Origin: Frondihabitans peucedani
GTDB taxonomy: Bacteria > Actinomycetota > Actinomycetes > Actinomycetales > Microbacteriaceae
Direction of reading: 5' to 3'
Assembly (NCBI RefSeq): GCF_039537585.1
Contig: NZ_BAABAU010000001.1
Location: 1,302,001-1,366,000, forward strand
DNA: 64,000 bases
In this document: one piece after another, positions 2,155-61,683 of the stretch
Numbering within the stretch: position 1 is the first letter of the stretch
Layout: each line of letters opens with the position of its first letter
Translations under genes and position numbers: made by a program
The notes under the pieces: generated by a model
Told to the model about the DNA's origin: nothing
What the model saw: only the letters and a program-made list of their open reading frames with translations
The model's database searches: none

Positions 2155-3258
2155 TCAGAGGCGCAGGATCAGCCGCCGCCCGAGGTGCCGCGCGTACTCG
2201 GCCGCCCGACGCTCGACGGCGGAGGCAACCGCCCCCGGCAGCGGTGCGAACGGCTCCACCTCGACCTCGACCGAGGCGTCCGCCGACGTGGCCGAGCCGA
2301 CGAGCGACCGCCGCCACACCCCGACGACGACGCCGTCGACGGTCAGGACCGCGCTGAAGAGCCCGTTCGAGTGCGGCACGACCCGCGCGAAGTCGGCCGC
2401 GGCGAGAGTCGCCGAGCGGTCGCGGTACCCGAGCAGCAGTTCGTCGAAGGGCGGCAGGAGGCGCACGTCCGGGCCGCCGGCCCTGTCGGCACCGAGGGCG
2501 CCGGCTCCGGCGCTACGCGCGCTGACGAGGAGCCCGTCGTCGTGCCGCTCGACGGCGTCGCCCGCGAGTGCCACGGCGCGCTTCGCCTCGGTCACCGTGA
2601 GTCCGCCCCACCAGGCGAGGTCGTGGACCGTCGCCGGTCCGTGGCCCGAAAGATAGCGGTCGGCCAGTCGGGCCAGCGCCTCGTCGCGGTCGAGGCGCTC
2701 GGCGTCGGGCAGCCACTCGTCGAAGAGCACGAGGGTCTGCTCGGTTCCGTGGGCCGGACCGAGGACGATCACGGCCTCCCCCGCGATCCTGCGGATCAGG
2801 TGCGACCCGCGGCCGCCCGAGGTCTCGAGCCCGGCCTCGTCGAAGGCCCGGAGCAGAGCGGCCCTGGGCAGCGCTCGGCCGCCCGCGAGGACGTCTCTCG
2901 CCACGGAGGCCGCGGTGACGAAGTCGCCCTCGACGAGACCGGCCCTCCGCCAGATGCTCGCGCTCGCGGCGAAGGAGCGCGGGGCGGCGAGCTCGGTCAG
3001 CCAGCGTGCGTCGTGACGGGCGACGATCAGCAGGGTGCCGCGCATCGGCCAGGTCCGGACGACCGTGCCGCTCGCCAGAGCCTCGTCGACGTCGCTCCGG
3101 AGGCCGGTCGACCGCAGCGCGAGCGCCCACTCCGCCCCGTGGAGATCCTGCGCCTGCGTGGCCAGCAGCCGGTGGGCGGCCCCCGCGACCGACGGCTCGG
3201 CGGGCCCCGCGACACCCTGGGCGGCGAGGCGTCGACGCGCGATCTCGGCCGGCTCCAT
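2155..3258 (-). CDS. Winged-helix DNA-binding protein, AlkZ/HTH_42-like
   Basis: This 367-residue protein has the hallmarks of the winged-helix family that includes the AlkZ/YcaQ glycosylases: an early QAQD motif followed by ALALRSTG (about residues 54-70), then VVRTWPMRGTLLIVA. Members are actinobacterial proteins of the HTH_42 (DUF1006) group. AlkZ and YcaQ unhook DNA crosslinks, but many members have no assigned activity, so glycosylase function is inference. The ATG at 3258 sits six bases after a CACAGT hexamer (3265-3270 on the minus strand), which fits a leaderless start. It converges with the MMPL gene across about 40 bp. Confidence 0.75.
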   Translation of the reverse strand: MEPAEIARRRLAAQGVAGPAEPSVAGAAHRLLATQAQDLHGAEWALALRSTGLRSDVDEALASGTVVRTWPMRGTLLIVARHDARWLTELAAPRSFAASASIWRRAGLVEGDFVTAASVARDVLAGGRALPRAALLRAFDEAGLETSGGRGSHLIRRIAGEAVIVLGPAHGTEQTLVLFDEWLPDAERLDRDEALARLADRYLSGHGPATVHDLAWWGGLTVTEAKRAVALAGDAVERHDDGLLVSARSAGAGALGADRAGGPDVRLLPPFDELLLGYRDRSATLAAADFARVVPHSNGLFSAVLTVDGVVVGVWRRSLVGSATSADASVEVEVEPFAPLPGAVASAVERRAAEYARHLGRRLILRL

Positions 3259-3386
3259 GCCGACACTGTGTCACGGGAACGGGATGTTCACCCCCGAACG
3301 CGTGACTGGAGTGACCCCTGTCGCCTACCCTGACCCCACGGTGCCGTCGTTCAGGGTCGACGCCGCTCATCGGGGAGGTCGTCGTC

Positions 3387-5102
3387 ATGCAGCACACCAT
3401 CGAGAATCCCGGCAGGATCACGCGCTCTCGCGCCGTCCTGGCGGTGGCGGCTCTCGCCGCGTCCAGTCTCGCTCTCACGCTCGGCGGTCACGCCGGCGCG
3501 GCCCACGCCGCCGAGGCGAGCGCGTGGGGCTCCTTCACCGTCACCGGGTCGGCGCGCGCCTACACCGGCACGATGACCCTCCCGGGCGGCTTCCCGGACA
3601 CCGCGTTCACGAGCACCTCTCGCTACGCCACCGTCGTCACGGGCGCGAGCACCTGGCAGGCGGCCTCTACGCCTCCCGGCGGCCTCTACGGATCGAGCCG
3701 GAACCAGACGTACCTCAACCAGCGGCCGGCCGCCGACAACCCGACGTCGCCCGCGATCACCACCTACACCTTCGCCACGCCGACTCCCGCGAGCGGCTGG
3801 TCGTTCGTCCTCGGCGACATCGACGCCGACCAGGCGACCGTCTCCGCAACGGCTGTCGACGGCTCGGCCGTCCCGATCGCCGACCTCGGCTTCCAGGGCG
3901 CCTACAACTACTGCCAGCGCGCCGGGGGTCCGTCGTGCACGGGGATCGGCCTGACCGACGTCCCGACCTGGAACCCGACGACGGGTGTGCTGCAGGGGAA
4001 CACGGCGGCGACCGACACCTCGGGCGCCTCCGGCTGGTTCAGCCCGTCCGTGCCGCTCAAGACGCTGACGATCAGCTATCAGGAGCGCTCGGGGCTGCCG
4101 GTCTACCAGACCTGGTTCGCGACCAGGACCTTCTCGCCGTCCGGCACGGTCACCGTGAACGGCACGCCCGTCTCCGGGGTCCCGCTGACGATCCGCGACG
4201 CCTCGGGCGCCGTCGTCGGCACGACCACGAGCGGGGACGACGGCACCTGGAGCCTCCCCGGCCTCGTGTCGACGAGCGGCTACACCGTCGGGGCGGGCAC
4301 ACCGCCGGAGGCTGCCGCGCTCCCGCGCCTGGCCTTCGACACGCTCGACGCCGACACCCCGGGGCTCGACTTCGCGTTCACGGTGCCGACGGTGGCGGTG
4401 ACCGGGACGATCGACGCGGCCGACGGCGATCCTGCGGCGGGAGAGCCGATCGTCTTCACACCCGTCGCCGACGGTCTCCCCGAGGTGTCCACGTTCACGG
4501 ATGCCGACGGCGGCTTCACGGCCGACCTCGTGCCCTCGCAGGCCTACACCGCCGTGATCGGCGATGCGACCGACCAGCCGATCCCGTTCACGGCGCCCGA
4601 GGCCGACGGCCCGCTCGACGCGCCGCTCGTGCAACCGGCTCCCCCGGCTCCCCCGGTGACGACGCCCGCGACGATCGAGGTGACCGGCACCGCTCTGACG
4701 GCCTCCGGCGATCCTGCGGCGAACGAGACGCTCGTCTTCACCCCGGACGACGACTCGCTGCCGTCGACGACCGTCACCACCGACGAGACCGGGGCCTTCA
4801 CGGCCGACCTCTTCCCGTCGGAGCCGTACACGCTCGTCGTCGGTGGCGCGACCGGGCAGCCGATCCGCTTCACGACGCCCGCCGCGGCCGGCCCCCTCGC
4901 GGTGCCGCTCGTCCAGCCGGCAGCGGCATCGACGACACCGCCGCCGACGGTCACCCCGGGCTCGACGTCGACTCCGGCCGAGCTCGCGATGACCGGGTCG
5001 ACCCCCGCCGTGCCCGCCTCGGTCGCGATCCTGCTGGCCCTCGCGGGCTCCGCCCTCCTGATGCGGGAGCGCGCCGGGAGGCGCCGCACCGGCCGGGAGT
5101 AG
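3387..5102 (+). CDS. Secreted cell-wall anchored protein with carboxypeptidase-like repeats and LAxTG signal
   Basis: This 571-residue protein starts with a signal peptide ending near AHAAEA (about residue 42). A roughly 200-residue domain without a clear family follows, then three similar beta-sandwich repeats of the carboxypeptidase-regulatory or surface-protein B type. The later repeats share VTGT, GDPAA and FTADLxPSxxYT elements. The C terminus has LAMTGS, a hydrophobic stretch and an RRR-rich tail, which is a class E-type (LAxTG) sorting signal, so it is probably attached to peptidoglycan by a sortase not in this window. The start has GGGGAGG eight bases upstream, and TACCCT at about 3327 may be its -10. 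Ligand or role unknown. Confidence 0.75.
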   Translation: MQHTIENPGRITRSRAVLAVAALAASSLALTLGGHAGAAHAAEASAWGSFTVTGSARAYTGTMTLPGGFPDTAFTSTSRYATVVTGASTWQAASTPPGGLYGSSRNQTYLNQRPAADNPTSPAITTYTFATPTPASGWSFVLGDIDADQATVSATAVDGSAVPIADLGFQGAYNYCQRAGGPSCTGIGLTDVPTWNPTTGVLQGNTAATDTSGASGWFSPSVPLKTLTISYQERSGLPVYQTWFATRTFSPSGTVTVNGTPVSGVPLTIRDASGAVVGTTTSGDDGTWSLPGLVSTSGYTVGAGTPPEAAALPRLAFDTLDADTPGLDFAFTVPTVAVTGTIDAADGDPAAGEPIVFTPVADGLPEVSTFTDADGGFTADLVPSQAYTAVIGDATDQPIPFTAPEADGPLDAPLVQPAPPAPPVTTPATIEVTGTALTASGDPAANETLVFTPDDDSLPSTTVTTDETGAFTADLFPSEPYTLVVGGATGQPIRFTTPAAAGPLAVPLVQPAAASTTPPPTVTPGSTSTPAELAMTGSTPAVPASVAILLALAGSALLMRERAGRRRTGRE

Positions 5103-5111
5103 CGTCGGGCC

Positions 5112-6098
<987 letters not shown>

Positions 6099-8114: not shown

Positions 8115-10099
8115 CCACCACAGATCAGACCGGCGTGACCGACGCGCTCGAACAGGGCCAGCAGTCCCGAGCGCCGAGAGGCTCCCTCCGGGCCTGGCTC
8201 CTGCAGGGCGCCAACGCGCAGGCCGGCAAGCACCCGGGGCCGCACGCCGAGACGGTCGAGAAGACGCACTCGTGGTGGCGGGTCATGTGCCTCACCGGCG
8301 TCGACTACTTCTCGACCCTCGGCTACCAGCCGGCCATCGCCGCCGTCGCCGCCGGGCTCCTCTCCCCGTTCGCCACGATCGTCCTCGTCCTGCTCACGCT
8401 GCTCGGCGCGCTGCCGGTCTACCGCCGGGTCGCCCGCGAGAGCTTCAAGGGGTCGGGGTCGATCGCCATGCTCGAGCGGCTGCTGCCGTGGTGGGGCGGC
8501 AAGCTGTTCGTCCTCGTCCTGCTCGGCTTCGCCGCCACCGACTTCATGATCACGGTGACCCTGTCGGCGGCCGACGCCACCGCGCACGCCATCGAGAACC
8601 CGTTCGCGCCGTCCTGGTTCCACGGGGCGCAGATCCCGCTGACCCTGTTCCTCATCGCGCTGCTCGCCGTCGTGTTCCTCCGCGGCTTCAAGGAGGCCAT
8701 CGGCATCGCGGTCGTCCTCGTCGCGATCTACCTGACGCTCAACGCCGTCGTCATCATCGTGTCGTTCGGCCACATCGCCGAGAACCCGGGCGTCGTCGAC
8801 GACTGGTGGAGGGCGCTCACGACGCAGCACGCCAACCCGCTCGCGATCATCGGCATCTCGCTGCTGGTGTTCCCGAAGCTGGCGCTCGGCCTGTCCGGGT
8901 TCGAGACCGGCGTCGCCGTCATGCCGCAGATCACCGGCGACGAGAGCGACACCCCCGAGCTGCCTCGCGGCCGGATCAGAGGCGCCAAGCGCCTCCTCGC
9001 GACCGCCGCCGTCGTGATGAGCTGCTTCCTCATCACCTCGAGCATCGTCACGACGCTCCTCATCCCGCAGAAGGCGTTCCAGTCGGGCGGGCCCGCCAAC
9101 GGCCGCGCGCTGGCGTACCTCGCCCACCAGTACCTCGGCAACGGCTTCGGCACCGTCTACGACGTCTCGACCATCTTCATCCTGTGGTTCGCCGGCGCCT
9201 CGGCCCTGGCCGGCCTCCTGAACCTCGTGCCGCGCTACCTCCCGCGCTACGGGATGGCGCCGCAGTGGGCGTCGGCGGTGCGCCCCCTGGTCCTGGTGTT
9301 CACGGCCATCGGGTTCCTGATCACGATCCTGTTCCAGGCCGACGTCGACAAGCAGGGCGGCGCGTACGCGACCGGCGTGCTCGTGCTCATCACCTCGGCC
9401 TCGGTGGCGGTGTTCCTGTCCGCGCTCCACAAGCAGCAGCGGAAGCGCACGATCGGCTTCGGTGCCGCCGTGGCGGTCTTCGGCTACACGACCGTGCTCA
9501 ACATCATCGAGCGGCCCGAGGGCGTCCGCATCGCGGCCCTGTTCATCGTCGGGATCTTCGTGGTGTCGATCCTGTCGCGCATCCGCCGGTCGTTCCAGCT
9601 GCGGGCGACGAGCGTCTCGCTCGACGACGCGGCGCTGTCGTTCGTGCAGGAGGACGCCGACGAGTACGGCGCCGTCCGGATCGTCTCGAACGAGCCCGAC
9701 GACGGCTCCCGCCTGGAGTACAAGACGAAGCTCGCCGACGAGCGGAAGGCGAGCGGCATCCCGATGCGGTCGCCGATCATCTTCCTCGAGGTCTACCCCG
9801 ACGACTCGTCCAACTTCGAGGAGGACCTCGAGGTCCGCGGCGTCACGATGCACGGCTACCGCGTGCTCAAGGTCCGAAGCGGCAACGTGCCCAACACGAT
9901 CGCGACGATCCTGCTCGAGATCCGCGACGTCACCGGCGTCAAGCCCGACATCTACTTCGAGTGGACCGAGGGCAGCCCGATCTCGAACATGTTCAAGTTC
10001 CTGGTCACGGGTGTCGGCGAGGTCGCCCCCGTGACGCGCGAGGTGCTGCGCCGCGCGGAGCACGACCGCGCGCGGCGGCCCGACGTCCACGTGAGCTAG
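8111..10099 (+). CDS. APC-superfamily amino acid/cation permease with cytoplasmic tail
   Basis: This 662-residue integral membrane protein has about twelve hydrophobic helices between residues 60 and 500. It starts with [20 protein letters not shown], typical of APC-family permeases. A soluble C-terminal tail of about 160 residues follows the last helix. Family members move amino acids or potassium across the inner membrane; the substrate is not known here. The GTG start overlaps the stop of the tag gene by four bases (GTGA). That coupling to a DNA repair gene looks accidental in function, but it fixes the start codon. The gene ends at a large inverted repeat shared with the convergent SDR gene. 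Confidence 0.85.
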
Positions 10100-10174: not shown

Positions 10175-10177
10175 AGC

Positions 10178-12225: not shown

Positions 12226-13623
12226 TCAGCGCTCGGCCGGGACCACCACGTCGGGCGCGGGCCACGACTCGGGTCCGTCAGATCCTGCCGGGTACTCGTC
12301 GAGCGGGACCCGGCCGTCCTTCCACGCCGTGAGCACCGGCGCCACGATGCGCCAGCCCTCGACGGCCGCGTCGCCGCGCACCGACAGGGCCGCGTCGCCG
12401 TCCAGGATCCCCTGGAGCACCTCGCCGTAGGCGGGGAGGTCGCCCGCGTTGAACTCGGTCTTCAGGGTCGCCCGGTCGATGACGTAGGGGTCGCCGGGGC
12501 CGTTCACGTTGATCTCGAGCGACATCTCGTCGGGTGCGATGCAGATGCGGAGCCGGTCGGCCGAGCGGAGCGTCGTGAACTCCGGCGGCACGTGGCTCGG
12601 CGCCTTGAACGTCACGATGATCTCCCGCCGGTGCGACGCGAGCGCCTTGCCGGAGCGGAGCAGGATCGGGACCCCCGCCCACCGCATGTTCCGCACCTCG
12701 ACGACGACCTCGGCGAGCGTCTCCGTGCCGAGGTCGGGGTCGACGCCGTCCTCGTCGCGGTAGGCGGGGAGCTCGCGGCCGTCGACGGTCCCGGCCGAGT
12801 AGCGCGCCCGGCGGCTCGAGGTCGGGTCGTCCTCCCAGATGCGGGTCGCTCGGAGGGCGAGCTGCTTCTGGTCGCGGAGGTCCTCGGCGCGGAGGGTCGC
12901 CGGGGCCTCCATCACGAGGACCGCCATGACCTGCAGCAGGTGGCTCTGGATCATGTCGACCAGCGCGCCGGCGTGGTCGTAGTACCTGGCGCGGTTCTCC
13001 AGGCCGAGCTGCTCGTCGTAGACGATCTCGATGCTCTCCACGTCGCGGTTCGACAGCATCGGCTCGATGAGGCGGTTCGCGAACCGGAGGCCGAGGAGGT
13101 TGAGCACGGTCGACCGGCCGAGGAAGTGGTCGACCCGGTGGATCCTGCCCTCCGGCACGATACGTGCAAGCAGGGCGTTCAGGTGCTTCGCGCTCTCCTC
13201 GTCGGTGCCGAAGGGCTTCTCGAGGGCGAGCGACGTCTCGGGCGGGAGGTCCATCGTCGCGAGCTGCTCGCACGCCTTCTCGGTGATGGCCGGCGGCAGG
13301 GCGAAGTAGACCGCGGGGGTCGCCTCACAGGCGTCGAAGAGAGCCTGCAGGTCGTCCTTCGCGGTGACGTCCGAGGTCATGTAGGTGGTGGTCGCGAGGA
13401 GCTGCTCGACGGCCGGCCCGGAGGCGCCCTCGCTGTCGAACGACGCCTTCACGCGCTTCTTCCAGTCGGCGTCCGAGATCTCCTCGACGCCGGCGCCGAG
13501 CAGCTGCACCCGCCGCTCGGGCTCCTTCGTCAGCAGCATGCCGAGGCCGGGCATCAGCAGGCGGGCCGAGAGGTCGCCGGAGGCGCCGAGGATGAGCAGG
13601 GTGGACGTAGACGCGTCGGGCAT
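12226..13623 (-). CDS. zwf: Glucose-6-phosphate dehydrogenase
   Basis: This 465-residue enzyme oxidises glucose-6-phosphate to 6-phosphogluconolactone in the pentose phosphate pathway. The nucleotide motif GASGDLSARLL (residues 13-23) and the active-site stretch RVDHFLGRSTVLNLLGLRFA are clear. Length is slightly under the usual 480-510. It is the last gene of the galactoside operon, ten bases after the second GH42 gene. However, TAGCAT lies exactly six bases before its ATG and includes the TAG stop of that GH42 gene, so it may also have a private leaderless promoter. It is probably a paralogue, since zwf usually sits with pgl, opcA and tal; that point is inference. Confidence 0.93.
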   Translation of the reverse strand: MPDASTSTLLILGASGDLSARLLMPGLGMLLTKEPERRVQLLGAGVEEISDADWKKRVKASFDSEGASGPAVEQLLATTTYMTSDVTAKDDLQALFDACEATPAVYFALPPAITEKACEQLATMDLPPETSLALEKPFGTDEESAKHLNALLARIVPEGRIHRVDHFLGRSTVLNLLGLRFANRLIEPMLSNRDVESIEIVYDEQLGLENRARYYDHAGALVDMIQSHLLQVMAVLVMEAPATLRAEDLRDQKQLALRATRIWEDDPTSSRRARYSAGTVDGRELPAYRDEDGVDPDLGTETLAEVVVEVRNMRWAGVPILLRSGKALASHRREIIVTFKAPSHVPPEFTTLRSADRLRICIAPDEMSLEINVNGPGDPYVIDRATLKTEFNAGDLPAYGEVLQGILDGDAALSVRGDAAVEGWRIVAPVLTAWKDGRVPLDEYPAGSDGPESWPAPDVVVPAER

Positions 13624-41040: not shown

Positions 41041-41141
41041 GCGACCATTCTCCGGGCTGGCCGGGGGTTGCGCCTGGTACCCGTGGTCCTAGGGAGCGGC
41101 GGAGCCTTCCGGGCCTCAGGCGGGGAGCGCAGGATCGAGTC
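41041..41141. promoter_or_regulatory. Divergent control region XRE/SDR
   Basis: This 101-bp spacer has GAGAAT six bases before the XRE ATG and CAGGAT six bases before the SDR ATG; the latter is part of a GCAGGATC octamer. In the middle CTGGTACCCGTGGTCCTAG carries two GGTnCC half-sites and is the best candidate operator. The palindrome at 37850-37869 also contains GGTACC. Confidence 0.5.
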
Positions 41142-46408: not shown

Positions 46409-47017
46409 GTGAACGTGAACGATCTCGACGCACTCATCCGTCCCCCCACGCAAACCGCTGCGGCTGCCCTCGAGGTGCTCCGGGCCGCTGCCGACCCGGC
46501 GCTCGTCAACCACTGCCTCCGGTCGTGGGCGTGGGCCGGCGCGATCGCTCTGGCCAGAGGACTCCGCTTCGACGCCGAGCTGCTCTACGTCGCGGCGATG
46601 CTGCACGACCTCGGTGTGACACCCGTCTTCGACTCGCACACCGAGCCCTTCGAGGAGGCCGGCGGCGCGGTCGGGCGGGTCTTCGCCGCCGGTGCCGGCT
46701 GGCCGCCAGAGCGGAGCGAGCGCGTGCGGGAGGTGATCGTCCGGCACATGCTGCCGAGCGTCGATCCTGCGCAGGATCCCGAGGGCCACCTCCTCGAGGT
46801 CGCGACGACTCTCGACGTGCGCGGCGCCGGAGCCGACGACCTCGACCGGGGCTTCGTCCGCGACGTCACGCGACTCCTCCCCCGGCTCGGCTTCAGCGAG
46901 GCGTTCGACACCGCGATCGCCGGGCAGGCGGCCCGGAAGCCGTCGTCGCAGGCCGCGCGCCTCCACGCCGGCGGCGGTGTCGCTGAGGGCGGGCGCTTCT
47001 GGGCTGCGTTCGACTAG
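46409..47017 (+). CDS. HD domain protein
   Basis: This 202-residue protein is an HD-type metal-dependent phosphohydrolase. It has the pattern NHCLRSWAWA, LLYVAAMLHDLG with the HD pair, and FDSHTEPFEEAGG. Relatives include cyanamide hydratase-like and nucleotide phosphohydrolase proteins; the substrate is unknown. The GTG at 46409 is chosen because GAGGTG lies eight bases upstream. An ATG at 46355 would add 18 basic residues. Inside the gene GATCCTGC and GCAGGATC abut to make a perfect 16-bp palindrome (46763-46778). Its TAG shares CTAG with the convergent gene. Confidence 0.8.
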   Translation: MNVNDLDALIRPPTQTAAAALEVLRAAADPALVNHCLRSWAWAGAIALARGLRFDAELLYVAAMLHDLGVTPVFDSHTEPFEEAGGAVGRVFAAGAGWPPERSERVREVIVRHMLPSVDPAQDPEGHLLEVATTLDVRGAGADDLDRGFVRDVTRLLPRLGFSEAFDTAIAGQAARKPSSQAARLHAGGGVAEGGRFWAAFD

Positions 47018-49401: not shown

Positions 49402-49443
49402 GAGGGCAGGATCGCGGGGCGCGCGCCCCACGATCCTGCCCTC
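49402..49443. terminator. Terminator built from an inverted GCAGGATC pair
   Basis: GAGGGCAGGATCG (49402-49414) and CGATCCTGCCCTC (49431-49443) are perfect 13-bp complements, and the interior GGGGCGC/GCGCCCC extends the stem after one mismatch. The arms are the genome's dispersed octamer in inverted orientation. It lies between the converging ferritin-like and corA genes. Confidence 0.78.
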
Positions 49444-49465: not shown

Positions 49466-50464
49466 CTACAGCCAGCGGCGCTTGCGGAACACCCAGTACA
49501 GCCCGAAGCCCGCCGCGATCATGAGCAGGATCGCGAACGGGTAGCCGAACTCCCACTTCAGCTCGGGCATGTGGGTGAAGTTCATGCCGTAGATCGACGC
49601 GATGAGGGTGGGCGTGAAGAGGATGGCCGCCCACGACGAGATCTTCTTGACCTCCTCGTTCTGCTGGATGCTCTGGTCGGTCTGCCGGCGCGTGACGATC
49701 GTCGCGTGCACGGTGAGCGCGTTGTCGAGGATCGCGCGGAACGAGGCGACCCGCTCGACGATCAGCAGCGTGTGGTCGAGCACGTCGCGGAGGCTGCGCT
49801 GGAGCTCCAGGTCGACGCCGTACTTCTCGGAGCCCTTCTGCAGGCCGTCGAGCATCTTGACCAGCGGCACGACCGCCCGCTGGAAGTTGATGACCTCGCG
49901 CGAGAGGTTGTAGATGCGCTCCGAGAGGCCGGTGCTCTCCTCCGAGAAGAGGTCGTTCTCGATCTCGTCGATGTCGTTCTCGAGGCCGGCGATGACCGGC
50001 TCGTACTCGTCGACGACCTGGTCGAGGATCGCGTAGAGCACGGCCTCCGGCCCCTGGGCGAGGAGCTCGGGCGCCGCCTCCATGCGCTGCCGGACCTTCA
50101 TCAGGTCGGGCGACTCGGCGTGCCGGATCGTGACGACGAACTCCGGCCCCAGGAAGATGTGCAGCTCGCCGAACTCGACGACCTCCTCCGCGTCGACGTA
50201 GCGGGCCGGCCGCAGGACGGCGAACAGGATCTCGTCGTACCGCTCGAGCTTGGCCCGCTGGTGGCCGAGCAGGGCGTCCTCGATCGCGAGGGGGTGCAGC
50301 TCGAACTCGTGCGCGACGGAGCGGATCTCGTCGGGGCTGGGGCGGTACAGGCCGATCCAGCCCATGCCGTCGTTGTCGTGCATCAGGCGGTAGGTCTCGT
50401 CGAGACTCCGGGGATTCTCGATGCGTGTTCCGGCGACGTAGACGCCGTTGTCGATCAGGGGCAT
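49466..50464 (-). CDS. corA: CorA magnesium/cobalt channel
   Basis: This 332-residue protein has a cytoplasmic alpha/beta domain and long helices (about residues 1-265). Two C-terminal membrane helices follow, with the signature YGMNF just after the first (ASIYGMNFTHMPEL). CorA pentamers let Mg2+ enter the cell. Length and layout are typical. CATCCT lies six bases before the ATG at 50464, a weak leaderless candidate. The DUF6518-like gene lies 36 bp upstream on the same strand. Confidence 0.93.
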   Translation of the reverse strand: MPLIDNGVYVAGTRIENPRSLDETYRLMHDNDGMGWIGLYRPSPDEIRSVAHEFELHPLAIEDALLGHQRAKLERYDEILFAVLRPARYVDAEEVVEFGELHIFLGPEFVVTIRHAESPDLMKVRQRMEAAPELLAQGPEAVLYAILDQVVDEYEPVIAGLENDIDEIENDLFSEESTGLSERIYNLSREVINFQRAVVPLVKMLDGLQKGSEKYGVDLELQRSLRDVLDHTLLIVERVASFRAILDNALTVHATIVTRRQTDQSIQQNEEVKKISSWAAILFTPTLIASIYGMNFTHMPELKWEFGYPFAILLMIAAGFGLYWVFRKRRWL

Positions 50465-52225: not shown

Positions 52226-55200
52226 ATGAGCACGCTTCCCGAGACGCCGATCCTGCCCGAGCGAGGACTCCTCCGCGGGTCGGCCCGCACGCCGGAGGCG
52301 CGGACGCTGGTCGACGTGCTGAACGCCACCGTCGCCCTCCACCCGGAGGCGTCGGCCCTCGAGGACGAGCGCGGAGCCCTGAGCTACCGGGAGCTGGCGA
52401 TGCGGGTCAGGCAGGTCGCGCTGGCCCTCGCCGCGGCGGGCGTCGGCCGGGGCGACCGGGTCGGGGTGCGGATGCCGTCCGGCGACCGGTCGCTCTACGT
52501 GGTGATCCTCGGGGTCCTCGCCGCGGGCGCCGCCTACGTGCCGGTCGACGCCGACGACCCGGAGGAGCGGGCAGCCCTCGTCTTCGGCGAGGCGGGGGTC
52601 GTGGGCGTGGTCGGCGCGGGCGGGATCCTGCGACGCGGCGAGGAGGCGGTCGCGCTCCTCGCGGGTGCGGCCCCGGGCCCGATCGGCTCGGCCGTGATCC
52701 TGCCGTCCATCGCGCAGCCGGACGACGACGCCTGGATCATCTTCACGTCGGGGTCGACCGGCACGCCCAAGGGCGTCGCCGCGAGCCACCGGTCGGCTGC
52801 CGCCTTCGCGGATGCCGAGGCCCGGCTGTTCCTCGCCGATGCCGAGGCGGACGACGCCGACGTCTCGGGCCCGCTCGGCCCCGGCGACCGCGTCCTGGCG
52901 GGCCTCAGCGTCGCGTTCGACGCGTCCTGCGAGGAGATGTGGCTCGCCTGGCGGAGCGGCGCCTGCCTGGTGCCGGCGCCCCGCTCGCTCGTCCGGAGCG
53001 GTGCCGACCTCGGGCCGTGGCTGGTGCTGCACGGCATCACCGTCGTCTCGACGGTCCCGACGCTCGCGGGGCTCTGGCCCGCCGAGGCGCTCGACAGCGT
53101 CCGGCTCCTCATCTTCGGCGGCGAGTCGCTGCCGCCCGAGATCGTCGACCGCGTCGCCACCTCGTCGCGCGAGGTCTGGAACACCTACGGCCCGACCGAG
53201 GCCACCGTCGTCACCACCGGAGCCCGCGTCTTCGCGGGCGAGCCGGTGCGCATCGGGCTCCCCCTCGACGGCTGGGACGCCGCGGTGGTCGACGCCGACG
53301 GCCACCCGGTCGCCGACGGCGAGGTGGGCGAGCTGATCATCGGCGGCGTCGGGCTGGCCCGCTACCTCGACCCGGCGAAGGACGCCGAGAAGTACGCGCC
53401 CCACGAGGGGCTCGGCTGGGAGCGCGCCTACCGCTCCGGCGACCTGGTGCGGTTCGAGCGCGACGGGCTGGTCTTCCAGGGCCGAGCCGACGACCAGGTG
53501 AAGGTCGGCGGCCGGCGCATCGAGCTGGGCGAGATCGAGGCGGCGCTCCTCGGGCTGGACGGCGTGGGCGGGGCCGCCGCCGCCGTCCGGAAGACCGACG
53601 CGGGCAATCAGATCCTGGTCGGCTACCTGGCCGTGCAGGATCCGGTCGACTTCGATCGCACCGAAGCGCTCGGCCGGCTCCGCGAGGAGCTCCCCGCCGC
53701 CCTCGTGCCGCTGCTGGCGCTCGTCGAGGGCGACCTGCCGACGAAGACCTCCGGGAAGATCGACCGCGACGCACTCCCCTGGCCGCTCCCTCAGACCTCG
53801 GTCGACACGGCCGACGGCGGCATGACGCCCGACGAGCTGCTCCTCGCCGCCGACTGGCAGGCGGTCCTCGGGCTCCCCGTCGACGACGCGACCGCGAACT
53901 TCTTCGACCTGGGCGGCGGATCGCTCGCCGCGGCCCAGCTGGTCGCCCGCATCCGGCAGCGCGATCCCGAGTTCACGGTCGCCGAGATCTACGCGCACCC
54001 CCGGTTCGGCTCGATGGCCGACGCCCTCGCGGTCCGCGTCGGCTCCCGGGAGGCCCCGAGCGACGACTACCACCGCAGCCGGCCCACCCCGCTCCGGATG
54101 CAGTGGCTCCAGACCCTGCTCGGCCTCCCCCTCCACATCCTGAGCGGTGCGCGCTGGGTGACGTACGCGCTCACGGCCTCCAGCATCCTGCACGCGGCGT
54201 CGCCGGAGTTCCGGGTGCTTCCCACCGCAGCGCCCTGGCTCCTGGTCGTCCTGCTGCTCGTCTTCGTGACGCCGTTCGGGCGGATGGCGATCTCGGTCGT
54301 CGCCGCGCGCCTCCTCCTCTCCGGGGTCCGGGCCGGCGACCACCCGCGCGGCGGCGGCGTGCACCTGCGCCTGTGGCTCGCCGAGCAGATCGCCCACCAG
54401 ATCGGCGCGACGGGCCTCGCCGGCGCCCCCTGGATCAGCTACTACGCCCGAGCCCTCGGGGCCAGGATCGGGCCCGACGTCGACCTCCACGCGCTGCCCC
54501 CGGTGACCGGCATGCTCCGCATCGGCCGCGGCGCCTCCATCGAGCCGGAGGTCGACCTGTCCGGGTACTGGATCGACGGCGACGTGGTGCGGATCGGCGC
54601 TATCCGAATCGGCGCAGGATCGACGGTCGGCATGCGGTCGACGCTGCTCCCGGGCACGCGCATCGGCAAGAACGCGTCGGTCGCCCCGGGGTCGGCCGTC
54701 TTCGGCCGCGTCCGGTCGGGGCAGGAGTGGGCAGGATCGCCCGCGGCCCGCGTCGGCAGGAACCGCACCTGGTGGCCCGCCGAGCGGCCCGGCCGCTCCC
54801 GCCGGTGGCTGGTCGCCTACGGCCTGTCGTCGGTCGTGCTCTCGCTGCTGCCGGTCGCCTCGCTCGCCGCGGGAGGAGCGGTGGTCGCGACCGGCGTGGC
54901 GGGAGCCGCGACGCTCGGCGAGGCGTTCTGGCTCGCGCTGGCGCTCCTCGTGCCGGGCGTGCTCCTCGCCGGCTTCACCGCGTCGATCCTGGTGATCGCG
55001 CTCGTCCGGCTGCTCGCGCTCGGTGTCACCGAGGGGACCGTGCCGGTGCGGTCGCGGATCGGCTGGCAGGTCTGGAGCACGGAGCGACTGCTCGACCTGG
55101 CGCGCACCTTCCTCTTCCCGCTCTACTCGAGCCTGTTCACGCCGGTCTGGCTCCGGCTGCTCGGGGCCCGCGTGGGCCGCGACGTCGAGGCCTCGACGGT

Positions 55201-56221
55201 GCTGCTGCTGCCCGCGATGACGACGATCCGCGACGGCGCGTTCCTCGCCGACGACACGCTCGTGGCCTCGTACGAGCTCGGCGGCGGGTACCTCCGGGTG
55301 GCGCGCGCCGAGATCGGCGAGCGCGCGTTCCTCGGCAACTCGGGCATGACGGGCCCCGGGCACTCCGTGCCGCGCGACGGCCTCGTCGCGGTCCTGTCGG
55401 CGGCCCCGCGGAAGTCGAAGGCCGGGTCGTCGTGGCTCGGCTCGCCCGCGGTCCGGCTGCGGCGGACCGTGGCCGTCACCGACGCGGCCAGGACGTTCAG
55501 CCCGCCCGTAGGCATCCGGGCCGCCCGCATCCTGTGGGAGCTCGGCCGCTTCGTGCCGGTCGTCGTCACCTGCCTGATCGGTCTGGGGCTCGTCTTCGCC
55601 CTTCTCGCGCTGACGTCGGCGATCGGCGTCGGCTGGACGATCCTGGTCTCCGGCGCGGTCATGCTGGCGGTGGGCGCTGTCGCCGCCGCGGTGTCGACCG
55701 CGGCGAAGTGGGCGCTGATCGGCAGGATCCGGGTCTCGGAGAAGCCGCTCTGGTCGAGCTTCGTCTGGCGGAGCGAGGTCGCCGACGTGTTCATCGAGCT
55801 CTGCGCGGCGCCCTGGTTCGCGCAGGCCGCCTCCGGAACCCCCGCACTCGTCTGGTGGCTGCGGTCGCTCGGCGCCACGATCGGCCGGGGCGTCTGGACC
55901 GACAGCTACTGGCTGCCCGAAGCGGATCTCGTCACTCTCGGCGACGGGTCGACCGTCAATCGGGGCTGCGTCGTGCAGACGCACCTCTTTCATGATCGAA
56001 TCATGAGCATGGACACCGTCACCCTCGATCCCGGCTCGACCCTGGGTCCCCACAGCGTCGTCCTCCCGGCGGCGACGATCGGGTCGCATGCGACCGTCGG
56101 CCCGGCGTCGCTCGTGATGCGCGGCGAGGGCGTCCCGGTGGGCAGCCGCTGGTCGGGCAACCCGATCGGCCCGTGGCGCGAGGTGCGCTTCGCCGACTAC
56201 CACGCCACCGCGAACGCGTGA
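52226..56221 (+). CDS. Pls/PosA-type single-module membrane NRPS
   Basis: This is a 1331-residue protein. An adenylation domain (about 1-520) shows IIFTSGSTGTPKG, FDASCEEMW, NTYGPTEATV, YRSGDLVRF and KTSGKIDRDALP. The thiolation domain (about 535-600) carries the phosphopantetheine Ser in FFDLGGGSLAAAQL. The remaining 700 residues hold several membrane helices between left-handed beta-helix (hexapeptide) segments such as VRIGAIRIGAGSTVGMRS. There is no condensation or thioesterase domain. This is the architecture of epsilon-poly-lysine synthetase relatives, which polymerise one amino acid at the membrane. The product here is unknown. TAAGGT lies nine bases before ATG. Confidence 0.9.
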   Translation: MSTLPETPILPERGLLRGSARTPEARTLVDVLNATVALHPEASALEDERGALSYRELAMRVRQVALALAAAGVGRGDRVGVRMPSGDRSLYVVILGVLAAGAAYVPVDADDPEERAALVFGEAGVVGVVGAGGILRRGEEAVALLAGAAPGPIGSAVILPSIAQPDDDAWIIFTSGSTGTPKGVAASHRSAAAFADAEARLFLADAEADDADVSGPLGPGDRVLAGLSVAFDASCEEMWLAWRSGACLVPAPRSLVRSGADLGPWLVLHGITVVSTVPTLAGLWPAEALDSVRLLIFGGESLPPEIVDRVATSSREVWNTYGPTEATVVTTGARVFAGEPVRIGLPLDGWDAAVVDADGHPVADGEVGELIIGGVGLARYLDPAKDAEKYAPHEGLGWERAYRSGDLVRFERDGLVFQGRADDQVKVGGRRIELGEIEAALLGLDGVGGAAAAVRKTDAGNQILVGYLAVQDPVDFDRTEALGRLREELPAALVPLLALVEGDLPTKTSGKIDRDALPWPLPQTSVDTADGGMTPDELLLAADWQAVLGLPVDDATANFFDLGGGSLAAAQLVARIRQRDPEFTVAEIYAHPRFGSMADALAVRVGSREAPSDDYHRSRPTPLRMQWLQTLLGLPLHILSGARWVTYALTASSILHAASPEFRVLPTAAPWLLVVLLLVFVTPFGRMAISVVAARLLLSGVRAGDHPRGGGVHLRLWLAEQIAHQIGATGLAGAPWISYYARALGARIGPDVDLHALPPVTGMLRIGRGASIEPEVDLSGYWIDGDVVRIGAIRIGAGSTVGMRSTLLPGTRIGKNASVAPGSAVFGRVRSGQEWAGSPAARVGRNRTWWPAERPGRSRRWLVAYGLSSVVLSLLPVASLAAGGAVVATGVAGAATLGEAFWLALALLVPGVLLAGFTASILVIALVRLLALGVTEGTVPVRSRIGWQVWSTERLLDLARTFLFPLYSSLFTPVWLRLLGARVGRDVEASTVLLLPAMTTIRDGAFLADDTLVASYELGGGYLRVARAEIGERAFLGNSGMTGPGHSVPRDGLVAVLSAAPRKSKAGSSWLGSPAVRLRRTVAVTDAARTFSPPVGIRAARILWELGRFVPVVVTCLIGLGLVFALLALTSAIGVGWTILVSGAVMLAVGAVAAAVSTAAKWALIGRIRVSEKPLWSSFVWRSEVADVFIELCAAPWFAQAASGTPALVWWLRSLGATIGRGVWTDSYWLPEADLVTLGDGSTVNRGCVVQTHLFHDRIMSMDTVTLDPGSTLGPHSVVLPAATIGSHATVGPASLVMRGEGVPVGSRWSGNPIGPWREVRFADYHATANA

Positions 56222-57534
56222 TGGCCGCCGCCCCGGGGCGACGGCGGAGCTACCTCCCCGACAGTGGGAACGCCGGCTACCGCACGCTCTCGTACGACCT
56301 CGACCTCGCGTACCGCGTCGCCACCAACCGCCTCGACGGCCAGGCGACGATCCGCGCCGTGGCGACGGCCGACCTGTCCCGCATCTCGTTCGACCTGACC
56401 CGGCTCCGCGTGTCGAAGGTGCGGGTCGACGGCACCAAGGCCGCCCGCTTCACGCAGTCGGCCGCGAAGGCGGTCGTCACGCCGGCCCGACCGGTCGAGG
56501 CGGGCCAGGAGTTCGTCGTCGTGATCGACTACTCCGGTGATCCTGCGCCCCGGAACAGCCCCTGGGGCACCGTCGGCTGGGAGGAGCTCACCGACGGCGT
56601 GATCGTGGCCGCGCAGCCGAGCGGCGCGCCGACCTGGTTCCCCTGCAACGACGACCCCGCCGACAAGGCGACCTACCGCATCCGGGTCAGCACCGAGCAG
56701 CCCTACGCGGTCGTCTGCAACGGGAGCCTCGCCCGGCGCGCGACCCGCTCCGGCCGCACGACCTGGGAGTACGTGCAGCCCGAGCCGACGTCGACCTACC
56801 TCGCCACGGTGCAGATCGGCCGGTACGAGCTGGTCCCGGCGGCCCTCGCCGGCGTGCCCGGGGTGCTGGCCGGGCCGCCTGCCCTCCGCTCGCGCATCGG
56901 GCACGACTTCGGCACCCTGCCCGAGATGATGGAGTGCTTCACGGCCCGCTTCGGCGACTACCCGTTCGAGGGCTACAGCGTCGTCGTCACCGAGGACGAC
57001 CTCGAGATCCCGCTCGAGGCCCAGGGCCTGGCGATCTTCGGAGCGAACCACGCCGACGGCCGCTCCGGCTCCGACCGCCTGATCGCGCACGAGCTGGCTC
57101 ACCAGTGGTTCGGCAACAGCGTGGGGCTCGCGAGCTGGGGCGACATCTGGCTGAACGAGGGCTTCGCCTGCTACTCCGAGTGGATCTGGTCGGAGTACTC
57201 CGGCGGCTGGTCCGCAGCCCGGCACGCCGCCGCCGCGCACGCCCGACTCTCGAGGCTGCCGCAGGATCTCGTGGTCGGCGACCCCGGGCCCGACGACATG
57301 TTCGACGACCGCGTCTACAAGCGCGGCGCGCTCACCCTCGCGGCACTCCGGGCGAGGGTCGGCGACGACGCGTTCTTCGAGATCCTGCGCACCTGGACGA
57401 CGCGGCACCGCCACGGGGTCGTGTCGACCACCGACTTCGTGGAGCTCACCGTCGAGCTGGCGGGCGACGACACCCTGCGGGAGCTGTTCACCGCCTGGCT
57501 CGACCGGCGGCCGCTGCCCGAGCTGCCGCGGTAG
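56221..57534 (+). CDS. M1 family metallopeptidase
   Basis: This 437-residue zinc aminopeptidase-like protein has the HELAHQWFGN motif (His290, Glu291, His294) and the third ligand Glu313 in WLNEGFA. The usual GAMEN exopeptidase motif is replaced by a LAIFGANH-like stretch, so substrate handling may differ. It is shorter than full M1 enzymes because it lacks the large C-terminal domain. Its ATG overlaps the TGA of the NRPS gene by one base (TGATG), so the two are translationally coupled and probably act together on one product. A convergent hairpin follows. Confidence 0.88.
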   Translation: MAAAPGRRRSYLPDSGNAGYRTLSYDLDLAYRVATNRLDGQATIRAVATADLSRISFDLTRLRVSKVRVDGTKAARFTQSAAKAVVTPARPVEAGQEFVVVIDYSGDPAPRNSPWGTVGWEELTDGVIVAAQPSGAPTWFPCNDDPADKATYRIRVSTEQPYAVVCNGSLARRATRSGRTTWEYVQPEPTSTYLATVQIGRYELVPAALAGVPGVLAGPPALRSRIGHDFGTLPEMMECFTARFGDYPFEGYSVVVTEDDLEIPLEAQGLAIFGANHADGRSGSDRLIAHELAHQWFGNSVGLASWGDIWLNEGFACYSEWIWSEYSGGWSAARHAAAAHARLSRLPQDLVVGDPGPDDMFDDRVYKRGALTLAALRARVGDDAFFEILRTWTTRHRHGVVSTTDFVELTVELAGDDTLRELFTAWLDRRPLPELPR

Positions 57535-57620: not shown

Positions 57621-58172
57621 CTACCGGAGCTCGGAGGGCGGGCCCGCAGGATCGCCCGCGGCCGGGAGCCGGAGCTGCATCCAGCCGACCGAGTGCCAGG
57701 CCCCGAGCTTCCAGCCGATGTCGGGGTAGGTGCCGACCTGCTCGAACCCGAGGGCCTCGTGCAGGCCGACGCTCGCGTCGTTCGGCAGGGTCATGCACGC
57801 CATGGCCACCCGGAAGCCCCGCTCGGCGAGGCGGGGCAGCAGCGCCGCGTACAGGGCGCGGCCGCCGCCTCGGCGCGAGGAACCCTGCTCGAGGTAGACG
57901 CTCACCTCGGCGGCCCAGCGGTAGGCGGCGCGCCTGGCGAAGGGGCCCGCGTAGGCGTAGCCGAGGATTCGCCCGGCGCCGTCGGGCTGCGCCTCCTCGA
58001 GCACCAGCCAGGCGTGGCCGAGCTGGGCGTCGGCGATCCTGCGCTCCATCTCGGCCGTGTCGGGCGCCGACTCCTCGAAGGTGATCGCCGTCGACTCGAC
58101 GTAGGGCGCGTAGATCTCGCGACAGCGCTCGGCGTCGGCGGGGGTGGCGTCTCGGACGACGTGGCTCAGCAT
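57621..58172 (-). CDS. GNAT acetyltransferase, phosphinothricin-type
   Basis: This 183-residue acetyltransferase shows the family start VRDATPADAERCREIYAPYV with TAITFEE, an RWAAEVSVYLEQGSSRRGGG acetyl-CoA loop and LHEALGFEQVGTYPDIGWKL near the end. These match the PAT/bar-like N-acetyltransferases. Substrates range from phosphinothricin-like compounds to methionine sulfone; the actual one is unknown. The ATG is six bases after TACTAT, a good -10, in a 38-bp divergent spacer shared with an XRE-cupin regulator. Confidence 0.87.
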   Translation of the reverse strand: MLSHVVRDATPADAERCREIYAPYVESTAITFEESAPDTAEMERRIADAQLGHAWLVLEEAQPDGAGRILGYAYAGPFARRAAYRWAAEVSVYLEQGSSRRGGGRALYAALLPRLAERGFRVAMACMTLPNDASVGLHEALGFEQVGTYPDIGWKLGAWHSVGWMQLRLPAAGDPAGPPSELR

Positions 58173-58210: not shown

Positions 58211-58780
58211 ATGACGGACGCCCTCACCGCCTCGCTCGCCGCAGCCCTCCAGAGCGCCCGGGCCGGCCGCGACCTGAGCGTCAGCGCCCTCGCCGAGAGA
58301 TCCGGCGTCTCGCGGGCGATGATCGCCAAGATCGAGCGCGGCGACGTCCAACCCACGGCGGCACTCCTCGGCCGGCTGACCGGGGCCCTCGGGATGACCC
58401 TGTCCGAGCTGATCGCCCAGGCGGAGGAGCGCGGAGCACCGGGCAGGATCGCCAGGCGCTCCGACCAGTCCGTCTGGCAGGATCCCGAGACGGGCTACCG
58501 CCGGCGGGCCGTCTCGCCTGGCGCGGGAGGTCCGATCGAGCTCGTCGAGGTCGAGCTGCCTCCCCGGGTGCGCATCGCCTACCCCGCCGACTCCTACTCG
58601 TTCACGCACCACCAGCTCTGGGTGCTCGAGGGCTCGCTCCGGTTCGACGAGGGCGACACGACGCATCGACTGGGTGCGGGCGACTGCCTGCAGCTCGGCG
58701 CGCCGGTGCCGTGCGCCTACGAGAACGAGACGGACGAGCCCTGCCGCTACCTGGTCGCCCTGGCCCGACGGGCTGTCTGA
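58211..58780 (+). CDS. XRE family regulator with C-terminal cupin
   Basis: This is a 189-residue regulator. The helix-turn-helix (LSVSALAERSGVSRAMIAKI, about residues 22-41) is followed by ERGDVQPTAALLGRLT. A cupin sensing domain (HHQLWVLEGSLRFDEGD then HRLGAGDCLQLG) completes it. Members control nearby transport or acetyltransferase genes. Both neighbours here are GNAT enzymes, one divergent and one 19 bp downstream. The start is fixed by TATAGT six bases before the ATG. Confidence 0.9.
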   Translation: MTDALTASLAAALQSARAGRDLSVSALAERSGVSRAMIAKIERGDVQPTAALLGRLTGALGMTLSELIAQAEERGAPGRIARRSDQSVWQDPETGYRRRAVSPGAGGPIELVEVELPPRVRIAYPADSYSFTHHQLWVLEGSLRFDEGDTTHRLGAGDCLQLGAPVPCAYENETDEPCRYLVALARRAV

Positions 58781-60003: not shown

Positions 60004-60693
60004 ATGGAACCCGATCTGAGAATCGTCAGCTACAACCTCCGCGAGCACCTCGCGATCGGTGAGCTGCATGAACTCGTCACCGCTCACACGATGGACGTGC
60101 TGTGCCTGCAGGAGTGCGACAGCACCGACATCCCCGACGAGATCAACGGCCTCACGCTGGCGGCGTCGACGAAGACGAACCGGCTGGGCCTCGCGCTGTA
60201 CTACCGGAAAGACCGGTTCGAGCTCCTCGGCACCAGCCTCTTCGCGCTGATGAAGTCGATGCACGACCGCGTCATGGCCCCCGCGCACGAGCGGCTGCTG
60301 GCCGCGCGGCTCCGCGACCGGACCACCGGCCAGGAGCTGATCGTGGCCGACTTCCACGCCGCTCCGCTGACCGCTACGAACGCGCTCCGCCGCAAGCAGA
60401 TCGGCCTGGCGCACGAGAAGCTCAGCGAGCTCGCCGGCGGCATCCCGACCGTGATGGTCGGCGACTTCAACTACCCGTGGTTCCGGCAGGGCCTCCGGAA
60501 GCACCTCCTGAAGACCGGCTACGAGCTGTCGATCACCGACGAGCCGACCTACGCGCGCCCCGGCTTCAGTGGTCACTTCGACTTCGCGACCACCATGGGG
60601 ATGCAGATCGGGAGCGTCTTGTCGCTGCCGCAGGGCAAGTCCGACCACCGTCCGATCCTGCTCCTCGCGAGCGTCGCCGCCGTCCCCGCCTGA
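60004..60693 (+). CDS. Endonuclease/exonuclease/phosphatase family protein
   Basis: This 229-residue protein has the EEP fold motifs: VSYNLREH at the start, VLCLQECD with the metal Glu, VGDFNYPW and a final GKSDHRPILL carrying Asp-His. Members cleave phosphodiester or phosphate bonds in DNA, RNA or lipids. No signal peptide is seen. The start chosen is the ATG at 60004, six bases after GACAAT (59992-59997). An ATG-like extension to 59947 adds 19 residues without homology. Confidence 0.83.
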   Translation: MEPDLRIVSYNLREHLAIGELHELVTAHTMDVLCLQECDSTDIPDEINGLTLAASTKTNRLGLALYYRKDRFELLGTSLFALMKSMHDRVMAPAHERLLAARLRDRTTGQELIVADFHAAPLTATNALRRKQIGLAHEKLSELAGGIPTVMVGDFNYPWFRQGLRKHLLKTGYELSITDEPTYARPGFSGHFDFATTMGMQIGSVLSLPQGKSDHRPILLLASVAAVPA

Positions 60694-60790: not shown

Positions 60791-60809
60791 ACGCCACTGA
60801 TCCGGCGGT

Positions 60810-60855
60810 GGCGGGAGCTCTTTTATTCGGGTAAGAGACTCCCGCCCATTCTCTT
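60810..60855 (+). terminator. Hairpin after the palindromic promoter: terminator or attenuator
   Basis: GGCGGGAG (60810-60817) pairs with CTCCCGCC (60839-60846) and CTCTT (60818-60822) pairs with AAGAG (60833-60837), with a one-base bulge and a ten-base AU-rich loop. CATTCTCTTT follows. It starts about 20 bases after the predicted transcription start, so a short RNA of roughly 65 bases would result. Alternatively it attenuates the GntR operon. A second -10, TATACT (60924-60929), lies beyond it. Confidence 0.5.
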
Positions 60856-60981
60856 TGGTGCCTCTTAAGCAGGGACGCCGCTCTCGGCCCAGGGGCGCCG
60901 TCTCCGCTCACGCACCGCCTCCGTATACTCGGGTCACGCCTCCCCTCCCGGGTGAGCGCTCGGGGCGATGAGGGGACGGTC

Positions 60982-61683
60982 ATGCGCGACGACACGAATC
61001 CGCGCACGCTCCTCCGCGAGCGGATCCACGGGCAGATCCTGCAGGCGATCCTCGACGGCACCCTGAAGCCGGGCGACCGTCTGCGCGACGACGAGCTCAT
61101 CGCGTGGCTCGGCACCAGTCGCGCACCCATCCGCGAGGCCCTGACCCGGCTCGCCGACCTCGGCGTCGTCGAGATGTCGCCGAACCGCTTCACGAAGGTG
61201 GCCCACGTGTCGCCGCGGCTCTACGCCGAGAGCGCCGCCGTCTGGGCGACGCTCGTGACGCGCGGCATCCACTGGGGCATCCTGGCGTTCCCGGCCGACG
61301 AGCTGCCGCTCCTCGAGCGCCTCAACGACGAGCTCCGAGCGTCCGACCCGAACGACTTCCCGCCCGGGCCGACAGTGATCGACCGGTTCGTCGGCGCGAT
61401 CCTCGGCCACTGCAGCAACGAAGTGCTGCTCGACAGCATCCACACGCTCGACCCGGTACTGCAGCTGGGCGTCAACAGCTACAAGGGGTTCCTCCGGTCG
61501 GAGCCGATCAGCGCCTACTTCGCCGAGCTCGTCCGCCGCTGCCGCGACCACGACGTCGACGGGTACGAGGAGGGCATGCGCGCGTTCCTCGCCGGCCCCA
61601 TGCACGGCTACATCGAGGACGTCACCACGGCGAACGGCTACGAGCACTTCGAAGGGACCTACGGTGCCCGTACCGAGAAGTAG
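60982..61683 (+). CDS. GntR family regulator (first of a tandem pair)
   Basis: This 233-residue regulator has a GntR winged helix (LRERIHGQILQAILDGTLKP, then GDRLRDDELIAWLGTSRAPIREALTRLADLG, about residues 11-60). An all-helical FCD-like ligand domain follows. The ATG at 60982 is preceded by GAGGGGA, and TATACT about 53 bases upstream is a likely -10. It overlaps the next GntR gene by 20 bp. Ligand unknown. The upstream palindrome at 60759 is a candidate operator. Confidence 0.88.
   Translation: MRDDTNPRTLLRERIHGQILQAILDGTLKPGDRLRDDELIAWLGTSRAPIREALTRLADLGVVEMSPNRFTKVAHVSPRLYAESAAVWATLVTRGIHWGILAFPADELPLLERLNDELRASDPNDFPPGPTVIDRFVGAILGHCSNEVLLDSIHTLDPVLQLGVNSYKGFLRSEPISAYFAELVRRCRDHDVDGYEEGMRAFLAGPMHGYIEDVTTANGYEHFEGTYGARTEK

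Follow-up and report, generated by a model that had tools for sequence, protein, structure and literature searches.

A highly repeated octamer with species dialects in Frondihabitans, a putative DNA uptake sequence

What keeps one eight-letter word recurring, in either orientation, about once per kb along a bacterial chromosome? The question is raised by a stretch of 64,000 nucleotides (the window from here on) of Frondihabitans peucedani (assembly GCF_039537585.1, contig NZ_BAABAU010000001.1, positions 1,302,001 to 1,366,000), a member of the Microbacteriaceae, in which the octamer GATCCTGC, the reverse complement of GCAGGATC, is repeated throughout. The GCAGGATC word is real and striking, it is a feature at the level of the genus, and it comes in dialects. 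It resembles the tags by which two unrelated bacterial families recognise their own DNA for uptake, and we consider it, with fair though incomplete confidence, a putative DNA uptake sequence of Frondihabitans serving natural transformation, in which case it would be the third independent example and the first from the Actinomycetota. Its role in uptake, the protein that would read it and the very capacity of these species for transformation are inferred.

Abundance of the octamer

Exact matches were counted on both strands. The window contains 75 copies (39 on the forward and 36 on the reverse strand), the first starting at 2163 and the last ending at 61042, against 3.38 ± 1.91 in 100 dinucleotide-preserving shuffles of the window, none of which (0/100) reached 75. 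A first-pass annotation of this DNA had described a heavy over-representation over exactly this span; its count by eye, 60-65 copies, was too low and the excess is larger than it had noted. The complete genome (G000, 3.69 Mb) contains 3208 copies, divided 1629 to 1579 between the strands, against 22 of the same word reversed, so that the excess holds genome-wide. We have used the reversed word as the whole-genome control and the ratio to it as the measure of enrichment, which is crude (one relative, G022, had a ratio of 10.4 but only 13 sites vs 9.4 after synonymous shuffling). Within 405 kb of sampled DNA, the window among it, no other octamer comes close in over-representation (389 vs 43 under an order-3 model with the motif masked). 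The same word occurs 24 to 871 times in 91 relatives outside Frondihabitans and G052 (a genome of another genus of Microbacteriaceae); a codon-driven background exists in these relatives, and G000 is far above it.

The strands are used evenly, as the annotation had stated. Over 18 stretches of the genome (~410 sites, the sample used also for spacing and pairing) the counts were 203 vs 207, and no stretch departed from 50:50 (chi-square 7.8, 18 degrees of freedom, p 0.98), leaving no replication-strand polarity at this scale.

Codon use and shape of the word

A simple codon-model gene finder was run over the window and over 16 further stretches sampled from G000. The genes called give the window the look of ordinary chromosome, and one of its proteins has its best named match, at 82% identity, in Frondihabitans sp. 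Leaf304. The 337 kb of called coding sequence contain 340 sites vs 37.8 after synonymous-codon shuffling, and the 47 kb of spacers 45 sites vs 2.6 under a first-order model. Both compartments are populated, as the first-pass annotation had seen, at a similar density (1.01 per kb in genes, 0.96 per kb in spacers). The favoured Ile-Leu register, ATC-CTG, accounts for 135 of the 340 sites, where codon usage alone would give ~30. The excess is strongest in the registers that require rare codons, GAT-CCT-GC (62 vs 0.65) and GCA-GGA-TC (36 vs 0.15); the remaining two antisense registers contain 58 vs 4.2 and 46 vs 2.5, and the Ser-Cys register.GA-TCC-TGC just 3 with 0 expected. The four in-gene registers besides ATC-CTG that have a non-zero expectation are thus raised 14-240 times, and the spacers 17 times. 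Since both rare-codon registers and spacers are enriched, keeping the word seems to cost the cell something in its choice of codons. Bias in codons or in codon pairs, the latter named by the annotation as an explanation that would undo its claim, does not account for the enrichment.

The octamer seems to be the complete unit. Its flanks are nearly uninformative (a slight preference for C at -1 and G at +1), so a longer hidden consensus was rejected. Among single-base variants of GCAGGATC, base 1 may vary (alternatives at 2.8-3.9 times expectation) and bases 3, 7 and 8 tolerate one alternative each at a little more than 2 times, while bases 2, 4, 5 and 6 are stricter, with variants up to 1.8 times expectation. 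The near-miss GGAGGATC is the sole strong depletion (17 vs 56 expected) and may reflect avoidance of a Shine-Dalgarno-like sequence.

Dialects among Frondihabitans and G052

The other six Frondihabitans genomes (G001-G006) are rich in the same word or in related ones. Whole-genome counts of GCAGGATC/GCAGGAAC/GCAGGATG/AGGATCCG are 3208/278/858/429 in G000, 2980/289/553/460 in G006, 2135/304/463/777 in G001, 2092/199/1063/585 in G002, 844/1394/302/264 in G003, 1013/207/1213/454 in G004 and 919/173/215/1735 in G005; the comparison genomes G019 and G050 have 686/239/201/380 and 633/347/298/439. The density of GCAGGATC in G002, ~440 per Mb, is half that of G000. The counts of GCAGGATC in G003-G005 (844-1013) are close to the 633-686 of the comparison genomes, and two of these three genomes have a clear favourite of their own: GCAGGAAC in G003 (1394, against 173-304 in the other six) and AGGATCCG in G005 (1735, against 264-777). 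The preference for GCAGGATG is less clean (1213 in G004, 1063 in G002, 858 in G000 and 215-553 in the others). Expressed per Mb, the lead of a favoured word over its level in the sister species is 5-9-fold in the case of GCAGGAAC, 2.6-7-fold in that of AGGATCCG and 1.5-6-fold in that of GCAGGATG. What the dialects have in common is a core AGGA (TCCT on the other strand), extended to CAGGA in G000, G001-G004 and G006 and to AGGATCC in G005.

The spacers of the sampled stretches follow the dialects. Each genome's own word is raised there ~19-30 times in G000 (49 vs 2.6), G003 (11 vs 0.4), G004 (18 vs 0.6), G005 (21 vs 0.8) and G006 (17 vs 0.9), and more weakly in G001 (4 vs 0.9) and G002 (5 vs 1.0). 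Also in excess is GCAGGAGC (59 vs 14.2 in G001, 54 vs 11.9 in G004), which contains AGGAG and may partly be ribosome-binding sequence in spacers. G052 carries GCAGGATC/CAGGATCC, with 1559 copies of GCAGGATC in 2.9 Mb and 20 vs 0.5 in spacers.

Turnover of sites, plasmids and phage

We have compared orthologous sites, a comparison that the annotation had suggested, in seven comparisons (two of them of G005). Motif octamers were conserved in 23 of 88 alignments vs 21 expected from register- and GC-matched octamers; genomes of the same dialect keep 12/31 (7.6 expected) and those of another dialect 11/57 (13.6 expected; Fisher p 0.07). Density is kept and places are not. Conservation in place about equal to that of other octamers led us to reject fixed regulatory sites and is what a putative uptake word would lead one to expect, because density rather than position would be maintained. 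Conversion of one dialect into another in place was also rejected, as at none of the aligned G000 sites does G003 have GTTCCTGC.

On plasmid DNA the word is at background level. Contig C2 of G000 (94 kb, 64% GC) is plasmid-like, 14% of one 20 kb piece of it resembling a plasmid of Frondihabitans, and has 3 copies of GCAGGATC in 40 kb vs 41 at chromosome density (P 2e-14). In 50 kb of the plasmid of Frondihabitans sp. PAMC 28766 (212,902 bases) there are 7, close to the background of the family; on the assumption that its own chromosome is as dense in the word as G002, one would expect 22. The Microbacterium phage Min1 (46 kb) contains 5 copies of GGATGCCG and 22 of CGGATGC, words of a type discussed below, compared with 0.89 and 1.05 per kb in 11 Microbacterium loci, and so lies below its host genus, which served as the reference, in the family word.

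Pilus and competence genes

A single run of genes in G000 (C1:2145048-2158213) encodes PilB and PilT (both T2SSE), PilC (T2SSF), pilins, PilD, PilM and PilO, together with a protein in the PilN position that had no Pfam match. One of the pilins has an N_methyl motif and a second a near-identical N-terminus. Three longer proteins look like pilins from their place in the run and from their likeness to the operon of G003, and the one of them that was scanned had no pilin family match. These pilin-like candidates (L203:4445-9619) have been compared with one sister species, G003; in this only pair the pilin-like proteins are 33-59% identical and PilD 68%. ComEA (SLBB and HHH_3) and an open ComEC frame are found at ~C1:624.1-627.4 kb of G000. 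Elsewhere, ComEC was present in 57 of 59 relatives searched and PilM in 50 of 98 genomes, including 7/7 Frondihabitans (split in G006) and G052. DprA (PF02481) was found in 7 of the 8 genomes searched, that is, in 6/6 other Frondihabitans and in G052.

Some irregularities were noticed in these genes. The comEC of G002 (C1:2981383-2982173) matches in two adjoining pieces, so that the gene is broken or the sequence contains an error. In G006 the pilM match (C1:1204534-1205552) is also in two pieces and the PilC-type frames look short, and its contig C2 has a second, divergent PilM/T2SSF pair.

A possible uptake mechanism and its known counterparts

How could such a word accumulate? The receptor would be a surface protein of the uptake apparatus with a preference for double-stranded DNA containing the word. 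The likeliest candidate is one of the minor pilins of the type IVa pilus, a fast-evolving one, and ComEA is another possibility. Retraction of the pilus by PilT, followed by ComEA and ComEC, would bring this DNA inside, and homologous recombination would insert it into the chromosome. As word-bearing DNA would enter more often, copies born by mutation would spread in the population (molecular drive) and the word would build up genome-wide, on both strands and in no fixed place. A shift in the specificity of the receptor would let a new dialect accumulate, and we propose that sister species have different words around the AGGA core because this specificity changes.

The resemblance to the uptake sequences of two other families, which the first-pass annotation had pointed out, is the natural starting point for comparison. 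The DNA uptake sequence (DUS) of the Neisseriaceae has eight dialects with a common CTG core and 943 to 5918 copies per genome (PMC3630211), and ComP, a minor type IV pilin, has a preference for DUS (PMC6370729). The parallels are a short word in thousands of copies, species dialects around a short invariant core (CTG there, AGGA/TCCT here) and a type IV pilin there alongside a type IV pilus operon in Frondihabitans. The differences are that Frondihabitans is an actinobacterium without an outer membrane, that the sequences have no evident relation, and that its word, known from sequence alone, has 8 letters, no extended flanks and few inverted pairs. The uptake signal sequences (USS) of the Pasteurellaceae have further flanking segments. 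They are of two types, with nine-letter words (AAGTGCGGT and ACAAGCGGT), and work with a type IV pilus system, the receptor put forward in 2025 being the minor pilin ComN/PpdA (PMC12616744). They are therefore alike in being genome-wide words accompanied by a type IV pilus system, and unlike in word length, flanks and phylum. Within the Actinomycetota, Micrococcus luteus relies on ComEC and Tad pili for its transformation and also has orthologues of ComEA and DprA (PMC4322843). ComEA, ComEC and a type IV filament are common to it and Frondihabitans; its filament is the Tad (Flp) pilus, and that article nowhere uses the term "uptake sequence".

A related word across the family

A word of the type CGGATGC(C/G), or CGGATGCS, appears to be the family counterpart. 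In 53 other Microbacteriaceae genomes its ratio to the reversed control has a median of 4.8 and is >3.5 in 34; in 38 genomes from 19 other families of the order the median is 1.4, the maximum 2.6 and 0 exceed 3.5. G034 contains 4980 copies. The excess is weaker than that of the Frondihabitans word. Against synonymous shuffling it amounts to ~2-6 times in genes of the enriched groups, in Microbacterium spacers to 3 times (32 vs 10.3), and 19 of the 53 genomes are without it, including 5 of the 8 under 1.9 Mb. In many other sampled Microbacteriaceae GCAGGATC itself is at ~1-4.5 times expectation in genes, with few spacer copies. It is plausible, from the letters, that the AGGAT-type words derive from CGGATGC-type words via the common GGAT.

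We would suggest, tentatively and with more doubt than belief, that many Microbacteriaceae run self-DNA recognition, in which an ancestral CGGATGC(C/G)-type word gave rise to AGGA-core dialects in Frondihabitans and G052, each with its species-specific uptake receptor. Uptake has its best case in Frondihabitans and G052, and the case is weaker where the whole family is concerned. Were the suggestion true, it would be the third independent origin of sequence-specific uptake and the first in the Actinomycetota, and barriers to gene exchange could be read from sequence across a whole family. Any case in the Actinomycetota would show that the trait had arisen again behind a quite different cell envelope, and would offer a new setting in which to ask about the evolution of such words (mate choice vs molecular drive); DNA with the right dialect might transform species lacking genetics, and dialect switches between close species would make receptor evolution directly testable.

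Points against the uptake reading

Several results weigh against uptake, in the genus or in the family. DprA was not found in G000, the genome with the highest count (loss, divergence or an assembly gap are possible reasons). Of the com/pil genes for which the annotation had proposed looking, the type IVa pilus operon, ComEA and ComEC are present. Spacing is random (coefficient of variation 1.10, random 95% range 0.92-1.10, over the ~410 sites) and inverted pairs are few, 13 of the 19 neighbour pairs closer than 45 bases, 6 of the 13 being overlapping GCAGGATCCTGC. The uptake words of Haemophilus and Neisseria differ in both respects, with frequent inverted terminator pairs and even spacing, features that we regard as non-defining. 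Literature searches covering part of what has been written on the genus found no uptake or transformation experiment for Frondihabitans.

At the level of the family, enrichment in CGGATGCS did not differ with PilM among the 44 other Microbacteriaceae >2 Mb (median ratio 6.3 with PilM, n=26; 5.4 without, n=18; p 0.38), and the idea of a family-wide link between the motif and the type IVa pilus was dropped. The association seen in copies per kb over all genome sizes (p 0.01) may be explained by genome reduction. G012 and G016 are enriched without PilM, each having one low-scoring T2SSF match, and G009, with neither PilM nor T2SSF, reaches a ratio of 6.0, but its excess over synonymous shuffles is just 1.7 times. 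Seven PilM-bearing genomes are low in CGGATGCS (G021, G036, G037, G038, G040, G047 and G055), and no convincing replacement word was found in the 58-80 kb examined of each; GCAGCAGC in G021 (55 vs 10.9, 4 in spacers) was judged unconvincing as a dialect. The prediction of a simple pilus model thus failed. The exceptions could be due to a filament of another kind, to recent loss of the pilus or to some different mechanism.

The resemblance noted by the annotation has gained from the dialects, from the background level on plasmids and from a genome that encodes the pilus operon, ComEA and ComEC, and has lost from the failure to find DprA and from the lack of a family-wide pilM link. Among the papers listed in literature searches, with subscription papers and preprints outside their scope, there was no report of an actinobacterial uptake word, and none was found to mention GATCCTGC or GCAGGATC as a word; GGATGCC appeared only, by title, in aptamer and rice contexts.

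Other explanations

The annotation had offered a methylated GATC context as the other option. An orphan methyltransferase would recognise the word, and repair or selection tied to methylation would keep it abundant, as in the cyanobacterial HIP1 (GCGATCGC), likewise a highly iterated octamer, which is tied to two orphan methyltransferases recognising its inner GATC and CGATCG (PMC4390886). The word of G000 does contain GATC and is genome-wide, unpolarised and chromosomal. HIP1 is palindromic, however, and the Frondihabitans word is not; GATC is absent from the dialects GCAGGAAC and GCAGGATG, which weakens the option; and, apart from GGAGGATC, near-miss words are not systematically depleted, which led us to reject a Vsr-like conversion. 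We consider this explanation unlikely.

Less likely still would be a binding site for a chromosome-organising protein, a nucleoid-associated or segregation factor for which many sites are kept by weak selection. Similar densities in genes and spacers, the chromosome-wide distribution and the background level on plasmid DNA would agree with it. The lack of polarity does not, and a change of dialect between sister species, with no conservation of position, would be unusual for such proteins.

A Chi-type hot spot, read by a RecBCD- or AddAB-like enzyme during the repair of broken ends, would also be an over-represented, taxon-dependent octamer at ~1 per kb. KOPS (FtsK orienting polar sequences) have a strand skew that switches at ori and ter. 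Local balance over the 18 stretches, with no excess variation, led us to reject both, in line with what the annotation had argued from balance in the window. Chi is skewed towards the leading strand and has to be in the right orientation to be recognised (PMC8022716), and dialects changing within a genus would presumably need a fast-changing repair enzyme; a Chi role is highly improbable. A by-product of composition or of the Ile-Leu codon pair, for which the prominence of ATC-CTG and the background in relatives could be adduced, is refuted as the main cause by the other registers and the spacers, and its probability is negligible.

Copies within the window

On the forward strand, GATCCTGC is found at 2785..2792, 3144..3151, 4428..4435, 4710..4717, 5027..5034, 5687..5694, 9907..9914, 12281..12288, 13141..13148, 13934..13941, 16559..16566, 19334..19341, 24939..24946, 28093..28100, 28480..28487, 31091..31098, 32010..32017, 33217..33224, 34391..34398, 36588..36595, 37784..37791, 38735..38742, 38992..38999, 39910..39917, 39950..39957, 40443..40450, 42831..42838, 43304..43311, 44036..44043, 46763..46770, 49432..49439, 52249..52256, 52624..52631, 52696..52703, 56539..56546, 57381..57388, 58035..58042, 60654..60661 and 61035..61042. 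The reverse-strand copies are at 2163..2170, 3412..3419, 12660..12667, 13686..13693, 15081..15088, 19761..19768, 21731..21738, 22037..22044, 22688..22695, 23759..23766, 25036..25043, 25276..25283, 26291..26298, 27660..27667, 29583..29590, 30169..30176, 34132..34139, 35550..35557, 35747..35754, 40620..40627, 41129..41136, 42402..42409, 43166..43173, 45376..45383, 46771..46778, 47037..47044, 49406..49413, 49525..49532, 53635..53642, 54614..54621, 54731..54738, 55722..55729, 57261..57268, 57646..57653, 58443..58450 and 58477..58484.

The copies at 46763..46770 and 46771..46778 together form a perfect 16-base palindrome. Those at 49406..49413 (left arm) and 49432..49439 (right arm) form an inverted pair in the spacer between two convergent called genes, 48437-49393(+) and 49466-50464(-), and this pair (49406-49439) could, by eye, be a putative terminator. 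The largest gaps between copies (2.7-4.2 kb) are 5695-9906, 16567-19333 and 49533-52248, the second of which lies in the 4 kb bin of lowest GC in the window (0.677).

Other repeated words

Some further words came to light in other genomes. In three stretches (L222-L224) of G039, which has no PilM, CGGATCC is over-represented 5-6 times (119 in 60 kb vs 21) and could be another dialect. Three Tsukamurella stretches (L080, L082 and L091; 72 kb) have GACGGTGC 72 vs 13.6 and CGACGGTG 94 vs 21.2, spacers included, possibly a comparable word in another family. Repeats confined to spacers were seen around CTCAGGGACCG in Planctomonas psychrotolerans (L022; ~24-26 octamer copies in one 24 kb locus) and, at ~15 copies each, as a TATCGAGA-type word in G050 (L225-L227) and a CACGTGAAAC-type word in G055 (L219-L221).

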